DNA from: an uncultured Psychroflexus sp.
Lineage (GTDB): Bacteria > Bacteroidota > Bacteroidia > Flavobacteriales > Flavobacteriaceae
NCBI GenBank assembly: GCA_913062845.1
Contig: CAJXVZ010000008.1
Coordinates: 1 to 64,000, forward strand
DNA length: 64,000 bases
Direction of reading: 5' to 3'
Shown here: in pieces, positions 15,515 through 16,255 of the stretch
Numbering within the stretch: position 1 is the stretch's first letter
How the letters are laid out: the number at the start of each line of letters is the position of its first letter
The notes under the pieces: generated by a model
What the model saw: the letters and a program-made list of their open reading frames with translations, nothing else
The model's database searches: none
Told to the model about the DNA's origin: nothing
Position numbers and translations under genes: made by a program

Positions 15515-16255
15515 TCAATCAATGATTTTGTCCTGAAGTGCGTAATAGGCTCTTCTGCACACCTTTTCTTCTGCTTTTTTCTTTGAAGTTTCTCTTGCTT
15601 TGGCCATGATTTGTCCATTTAAGACAAAAGACATGGCAAAATATTTTTGCCCGTTTTCTTTCAGGCCTGTATCAATACATTCCTTTATATCGTAATTGAA
15701 TTTGTTTTTTTGGCACCATTCAATCATGTAGCTTTTGTAGCTAATAACTTTATTTTCAAGTTCTTCTATATCAATAAACGGAATAATAATTTTTTCGGCT
15801 ACAAACTTTTCGCATTTTTTGTAGCCTTGATCAATATATATGGCGGCAATAAGAGCCTCCAAAAGGTTTCCATAAATGTTATCGCTAAAATGCTCTTTTT
15901 TTACCTGAGACTCTAAGAATTCAAGTAATTTGAAAGATTTACCGATCTTATTCAGGTTATTGCGGCTTACAGCTTTGGCTCTCATCTTAGTGAGGTAGCC
16001 TTCGTCGCCTTGTGGTGATTGTTTAAACAGGTGAGTAGAAATGATAGAGTCTAACAAGGCATCACCTAAAAATTCTAACCTTTCATAATTGATATCATTA
16101 CCAAATTTATCTTTCAGGTTCATTGACCTATGCGTGAAAACACTTTTGTAAAGGCTAACATTTTTAACCTTAAACCCCAATACCTCATACAAATTATATA
16201 AAAAACTCCCGTCCTTTTTGGAACGGGAGCTAAAAATATCTTCAATAAATTTCAT
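15515..16255 (-). CDS. rnc: Ribonuclease III
   Basis: Double-strand-specific endoribonuclease for rRNA and mRNA processing. The signature NYERLEFLGDALLDSIIS (about residues 57-74) contains the catalytic acidic residues; a second acidic helix GNLLEALIAAIYIDQG supplies the rest. The C-terminal dsRNA-binding domain ends in KKKAEEKVCRRAYYAL. At 246 aa it is normal. It starts 15 bp after the fabF stop, in the order acpP-fabF-rnc known from many bacteria. The first codons (FSSRSKKDGSF) form a strong terminator-like hairpin, described separately. Confidence 0.95.
   Translation of the reverse strand: MKFIEDIFSSRSKKDGSFLYNLYEVLGFKVKNVSLYKSVFTHRSMNLKDKFGNDINYERLEFLGDALLDSIISTHLFKQSPQGDEGYLTKMRAKAVSRNNLNKIGKSFKLLEFLESQVKKEHFSDNIYGNLLEALIAAIYIDQGYKKCEKFVAEKIIIPFIDIEELENKVISYKSYMIEWCQKNKFNYDIKECIDTGLKENGQKYFAMSFVLNGQIMAKARETSKKKAEEKVCRRAYYALQDKIID
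16200..16229 (-). terminator. Terminator-shaped hairpin inside the 5' codons of rnc
   Basis: On the minus strand CTCCCGTTCC-AAAAA-GGACGGGAG is followed directly by six T. The stem has 7 perfect pairs (CTCCCGT/ACGGGAG), a one-base bulge and two further GC pairs around an A5 loop. It lies at codons 9-19 of rnc, about 45 bases after the fabF stop. It could end acpP-fabF transcripts or control rnc. The shape is clear; its use is inferred. Confidence 0.6.

Follow-up and report, generated by a model that had tools for sequence, protein, structure and literature searches.

A conserved terminator-shaped hairpin in the first codons of rnc, behind acpP-fabF, in Flavobacteriales

Partial terminators or attenuators inside operons are known from Escherichia coli, where those of rplL-rpoB and rpsU-dnaG are intergenic. 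The element considered here, in the acpP-fabF-rnc gene set of an uncultured Psychroflexus, is comparable in that it would step expression down from an abundant to a scarce product within one operon, but this candidate terminator is at the same time coding sequence of the downstream gene. It has the ordinary attributes of an intrinsic terminator: the stem is rich in GC, the loop is short, a U-tract follows, and the whole points in the sense direction ~40 nt past a stop codon. Unlike such terminators, however, it is contained entirely in the first codons of the downstream gene, where covariation preserves it over a large part of a bacterial order. In E. coli, 3' ends that are premature or lie within ORFs have been described, a minority of them with intrinsic-terminator scores (PMC7815308). 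Those ends were mapped on RNA in one species, whereas the rnc element is a sequence prediction with deep conservation and codon-level selection. Hairpins in the rnc message are also familiar from the autoregulation of RNase III, which acts through the 5' UTR of rnc in E. coli and through its coding sequence in Streptomyces and Staphylococcus aureus (PMC5371410, PMC3386247). In S. aureus the cleaved element is a long irregular helix situated ~300 nt inside the gene (PMC3386247), whereas the rnc-start element has a short stem, keeps its U-tract among relatives and shows an architecture that is not special to rnc. In the literature searched, mainly open-access, we found no description of a terminator at the start of rnc or of conserved terminators in downstream coding starts, and the main text of a transcriptome paper on F. 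psychrophilum mentions neither rnc nor fabF (PMC9723704).

Considering that only 15 nt separate fabF from rnc in the window (the whole 64,000-nt stretch of DNA analysed; Table 1), there is no room between them for an ordinary intergenic terminator, and we propose that this tight packing is the reason why one would reside inside the first rnc codons. The adjacency of the two genes is kept in nearly all relatives.

Table 1. Features of the acpP-fabF-rnc region of the window, and the loci of two further genes discussed in the text
Feature	Position	Strand	Remarks
acpP	17768-17535	(-)	First gene of the acpP-fabF-rnc set; Pfam acyl carrier protein
fabF	17524-16271	(-)	Pfam ketoacyl synthase; its transcript would be ended by the candidate terminator
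rnc (RNase III)	16255-15515	(-)	Pfam match from residue 34, past the hairpin codons
Candidate terminator hairpin	16231-16204	(-)	rnc codons 9-18; 11-pair stem, CAAAAA loop
T-tract, six T	16205-16200	(-)	Phe and Leu codons; first two T may also pair with the outermost stem bases
DUF3822 loci	L298-L327; G010:C1:410313; own genome G000:C83:534-1283		
mscS loci	L328-L354; G010:C1:908255; own genome G000:C82:8486-9409		

Read 5' to 3' on the minus strand, positions 16231-16200 spell AGCTCCCGTTC-CAAAAA-GGACGGGAGTT followed by the T-run, and encode the peptide S-S-R-S-K-K-D-G-S-F-L (rnc codons 9-19; the hairpin with its T-run falls within codons 9-20). The initial annotation had pointed to a terminator-shaped hairpin in these first codons, and the structure, the RNAfold result and the score rank all confirm it. 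Its drawing holds for the hairpin itself and needs correction in the details: no gap interrupts the stem, which has a T-G wobble at the site of the implied bulge, and the loop is CAAAAA. The stem core starts at 16229, 27 nt into rnc and 41 nt past the fabF stop. Six of the 11 pairs are GC and the loop has 6 nt (intrinsic terminators: at least 5 pairs, GC-rich, loop of 3-8), and TTTTTT stands directly 3' of the stem. RNAfold gives -18.8 kcal/mol for a 46-nt segment (z = -5.7), a value that none of 200 shuffles equalled. A consensus terminator scan of a 15 kb region put the rnc-start hairpin at the head of its list of terminator-like sites. By a d'Aubenton-Carafa-type score (d = 25.5; as for all our terminator scores, purpose-written scripts with simplified energies were used, and start codons were called by rule) it ranks second in the window, and it is the sole strong terminator there that lies in sense inside a gene. 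The antisense strand scores -65 in the window, and is negative in every row shown. When the same rnc protein was redrawn with synonymous codons at local usage, the native score was reached in 0 of 1000 cases. Rfam placed the segment in no leader, riboswitch or sRNA family, the best match being at chance level (E = 0.75, with 17.3 bits where the gathering threshold is 84). A repeated genomic element was considered as well and rejected: CCCGT..ACGGG occurs at only four sites of the genome, fewer than its reversed control.

To see how far the hairpin extends, 130 Flavobacteriaceae loci and then families across Bacteroidota were compared, giving 202 distinct rnc starts from relatives that are unevenly sampled and mutually related. 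A folding-based score was adopted for this set since the ungapped score missed stems with bulges or large loops. It finds a terminator in 141 of the 202 starts, against 51 of 5050 synonymous redraws, and none of 3525 redraws of the positive genes reached the native score. All 141 positives have 6-8 T within the first 8 nt of the tract. The signal is confined to the start of the gene: with the ungapped score, 130 of 202 sequences are positive in the first 100 nt of rnc, one of 185 in the next bin and none in later bins. Most of the Flavobacteriaceae examined have the hairpin at the same place, as do several further families of the order, and the Flavobacterium records in the comparison carry it too. 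Outside the main family, f2, f3, f4, f7, f9, f11, f13 and f14 have hairpins near this rnc position. In f11 and f13 the stems found there are of unrelated sequence, namely GACTTGC..GCAAGTC in L168, CTCTCC..GGAGAG in L166, GCTCACTTTT..AGGTGAGC in L169 and GCTCTTTAGAC..GTCTAGAGGGC in L160. Class-level outgroups lack it. Moreover, it is absent from L118, L134, L135, L137-L139, L182, L183, L186 and the f5 and f16 rows despite fabF-rnc adjacency, and where the gene sequence of such lineages was examined there was no replacement deeper in rnc; the hairpin is therefore not essential. On the FabF tree its pattern of presence and absence requires ~18 changes, and well supported branches force 10 of these; it has been lost, and probably also regained.

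The variation within the stem is informative about what is being conserved. The initial annotation had held that the hairpin would lose credit if close relatives kept the amino acids and lost the pairing; the opposite is found, pairing being preserved even where the amino acids differ. Among 52 distinct hairpins 90.4% of the cells are paired and 7 of 9 pairs have changed on both sides, counts that are lowered by ~10 imperfectly aligned rows of alignment A1. Covariation amounts to 38 cells against 13.8 in shuffles, with 0 of 500 shuffles as high, and sliding the partner abolishes the signal. Codon pairs travel together, Arg CGT with Asp GAC and His CAT with Asp GAT, while the outer pair alternates between A-T, T-A and C-G jointly with Lys, Asn or Ser codons in one arm and Ile, Asn or Ser codons in the other. 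As the cells share ancestry, and the CGT/CAT switch comes down to about two events on the FabF tree, we do not treat cell counts as independent. In L092 the stem has become CCTAT..ATAGG, at the price of a Gly to Arg replacement. Codon choice tells a similar story: the stem Gly codon is GGG in 134 of 138 rows (background 11%) and the stem Ser codon TCC in 116 of 138 (background 12%; 18 rows are mis-framed at Ser and Arg, so that TCC is understated). The Phe codons of the T-tract in positives are TTT 259 times and TTC never, as against 1100 and 301 elsewhere in rnc. These patterns indicate that the RNA signal is maintained even at the cost of protein changes, that is, by selection at the RNA level.

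Could the hairpin simply be the by-product of a selected peptide motif, S-R/H-S-x-x-D-G-x-F-F? The amino-acid motif is conserved too, as this explanation expects, but hairpins of native strength are almost never regained in synonymous redraws, which refutes it as a full account; in addition the codons co-vary, the rare TCC and GGG are fixed, and terminators still form in f11 and f13, where the proteins are unrelated. The segment also precedes the RNase III domain and has low predicted confidence (AlphaFold mean pLDDT 49 for residues 1-10 and 70 for residues 11-20), so that the protein probably tolerates changes there. We regard such a coincidence of coding as having next to no chance of being correct. 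Here RNA structure is seen to constrain protein sequence within a housekeeping gene.

With respect to function, the geometry is suggestive. In the positives the stem begins at a median of 36 nt past the fabF stop (5-95%: 31-60) and 27 nt past the rnc ATG, and the adjacent, co-directional fabF and rnc (the DUF3822 and mscS pairs described below are arranged alike) are separated by a median of 8 nt. Ribosomes close to a stop codon block the E. coli terminator tR2; it reaches full efficiency beyond ~27-30 nt, and it also functions within the initial 100 bp of a coding region (PMC4824070). Given these data, the spacing of the stem places it where a terminator of acpP-fabF should work even when a ribosome occupies the fabF stop or waits at the rnc start. 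We therefore think it likely, from this comparative evidence, that the element is a partial intrinsic (Rho-independent) terminator of acpP-fabF that overlaps rnc and lowers its expression. RNA polymerase would exit fabF and the hairpin would fold ~40 nt beyond the stop, clear both of the ribosome shadow there and of any ribosome poised to start on rnc. Part of the polymerases would then be released at the U-tract, and the remainder would read through to yield rnc. Since the rnc start codon is upstream of the hairpin, rnc could be made only from readthrough, so that termination in vivo would have to be partial or regulated. The expected outcome is a step-down in which RNase III is made in lesser amount than AcpP and FabF, and the earlier suggestion of an excess of acpP-fabF over RNase III is plausible. 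More generally, conservation, covariation, the codons of the T-tract, strand, geometry and genome background now lend strong support to reading the hairpin as a terminator. The case is open to direct test, and concerns unequal expression within one operon in bacteria with tightly packed genes; one prediction is that RNase III levels should shift when the first 20 codons of rnc are replaced by synonymous ones.

Two variants of this function were weighed against it. In the first, the first codons of rnc serve as a leader: a ribosome that starts quickly on rnc would invade the stem and let the polymerase pass, making the element a translation-coupled attenuator and rnc transcription dependent on the start of rnc translation. 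The stem lies 26-31 nt past the ATG in nearly all positives, just beyond an initiating ribosome and within the path of an elongating one, and terminators near ribosomes are repressed in E. coli (PMC4824070). However, the need to clear the fabF stop explains the place equally well, and at DUF3822 and mscS the distance from stem to start codon ranges from ~22 to 95 nt; we consider this variant doubtful, though worth keeping in mind. The second variant starts from the general protection that terminator hairpins give to 3' ends, and holds that the hairpin chiefly stabilises the 3' end of an abundant acpP-fabF mRNA, the drop in rnc being a side effect. The geometry, which suits an ordinary fabF terminator, agrees with it, and by sequence it is hard to tell from partial termination that lowers rnc. 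It leaves unexplained, however, why the terminator survives where fabF and rnc are separated by a 100-nt gap, and we judge it unlikely.

That gap is found in one clade (L024, L025, L027, L061 and L179), in which fabF and rnc are ~100 nt apart and the hairpin is still at rnc +27, not close behind fabF, which counts against the terminator reading. Among the three genomes searched, the spacer is 85-89% identical and single-copy; it has an inverted repeat, AATAAACCAT..ATGGTTTATT, and its first bases resemble an old rnc start.

Because RNase III cuts double-stranded RNA, the initial annotation had also raised the possibility of a self-cleavage site, by which the enzyme would bind or cut the hairpin in its own message and so limit its own synthesis. 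The autoregulation known from E. coli, S. aureus and Streptomyces gives this idea some appeal, as does f9 (L146 and L170), where a strong stem of about -16 kcal/mol is retained at the rnc start and the T-tract has decayed to CTTGTC; this observation counts against the terminator reading, and the stem perhaps has another use there. Yet RNase III needs a long double-stranded helix of about two turns, and the stem in the window and its relatives has just 9-11 bp. Moreover, codon-level selection acts strongly on the U-tract, a feature that cleavage would not require, and the same architecture (a packed gene pair with a terminator in the start of the second gene) at DUF3822 and mscS argues against a role specific to RNase III. 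Self-cleavage is thus unsupported, and we hold it to be very improbable.

The genome background was assessed on 1.6 Mb of G010, a genome of the same genus. At d of at least 10 it has 83 intergenic terminators and only five in sense inside ORFs, of which the one in rnc is the strongest. Among its 1417 ORFs, four have a terminator with d of at least 10 in their first 150 nt, against 0.40 expected from synonymous redraws, and a mid-gene control in the same genome gave no ORF at this threshold. DUF3822 and mscS were picked from the G010 list as negative controls and came out positive. For the DUF3822 gene (PF12864), 29 of 30 relatives, with identities as low as 25%, show a covarying terminator, as against 9 of 1800 redraws; in most rows the gene overlaps a 214-aa upstream ORF, and the stem is mostly 24-37 nt past the upstream stop, near codons 15-25. 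For the mscS gene, which in most rows directly follows a dps-type ferritin gene, 10 of the 25 distinct sequences are positive (redraws 4 of 1500), and 17 are so with a weaker cut-off (redraws 21 of 1500). Here there are two different hairpins at two positions: many sequences have ATTGGGTAGATTC..GAATCTACCCAAT, and L334, L337, L350 and L353 have a different one nearer the start. At least two further gene pairs, those of DUF3822 and dps-mscS, thus share the predicted terminator-in-start arrangement. It is tempting, if speculative, to go further: Flavobacteriales may tune operons in general by means of a small, deeply conserved set of terminators in first codons (rnc, DUF3822, mscS), with selection on RNA shaping part of the N-terminus and the rnc coding start acting as its own attenuator through translation-coupled termination. 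We offer this wider picture tentatively, as a possibility rather than an expectation.

Several minor observations were made along the way. In L354, the mscS gene of G026, the frame seems broken by one internal stop, and the hairpin, whose stem is perfect (d = 19.9), stands upstream of what is left of the frame. A 193 aa lipoprotein-like ORF at G010:C1:971590 has CTTAGTGGCAATATTGCCACTAAG at codon 10 with a T-rich stretch behind it, and is a fourth candidate for a terminator in 5' coding sequence. Finally, rnc of f11 (L358-L374) seemingly has no normal start codon: 14 of 19 loci have an in-frame ATA that shares bases with the fabF stop (ATAA or ATAG), and 7 of those 14 have no ATG, GTG or TTG ahead of the RNase III homology. 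This ATA may serve as a weak AUA start whose use is coupled to fabF.
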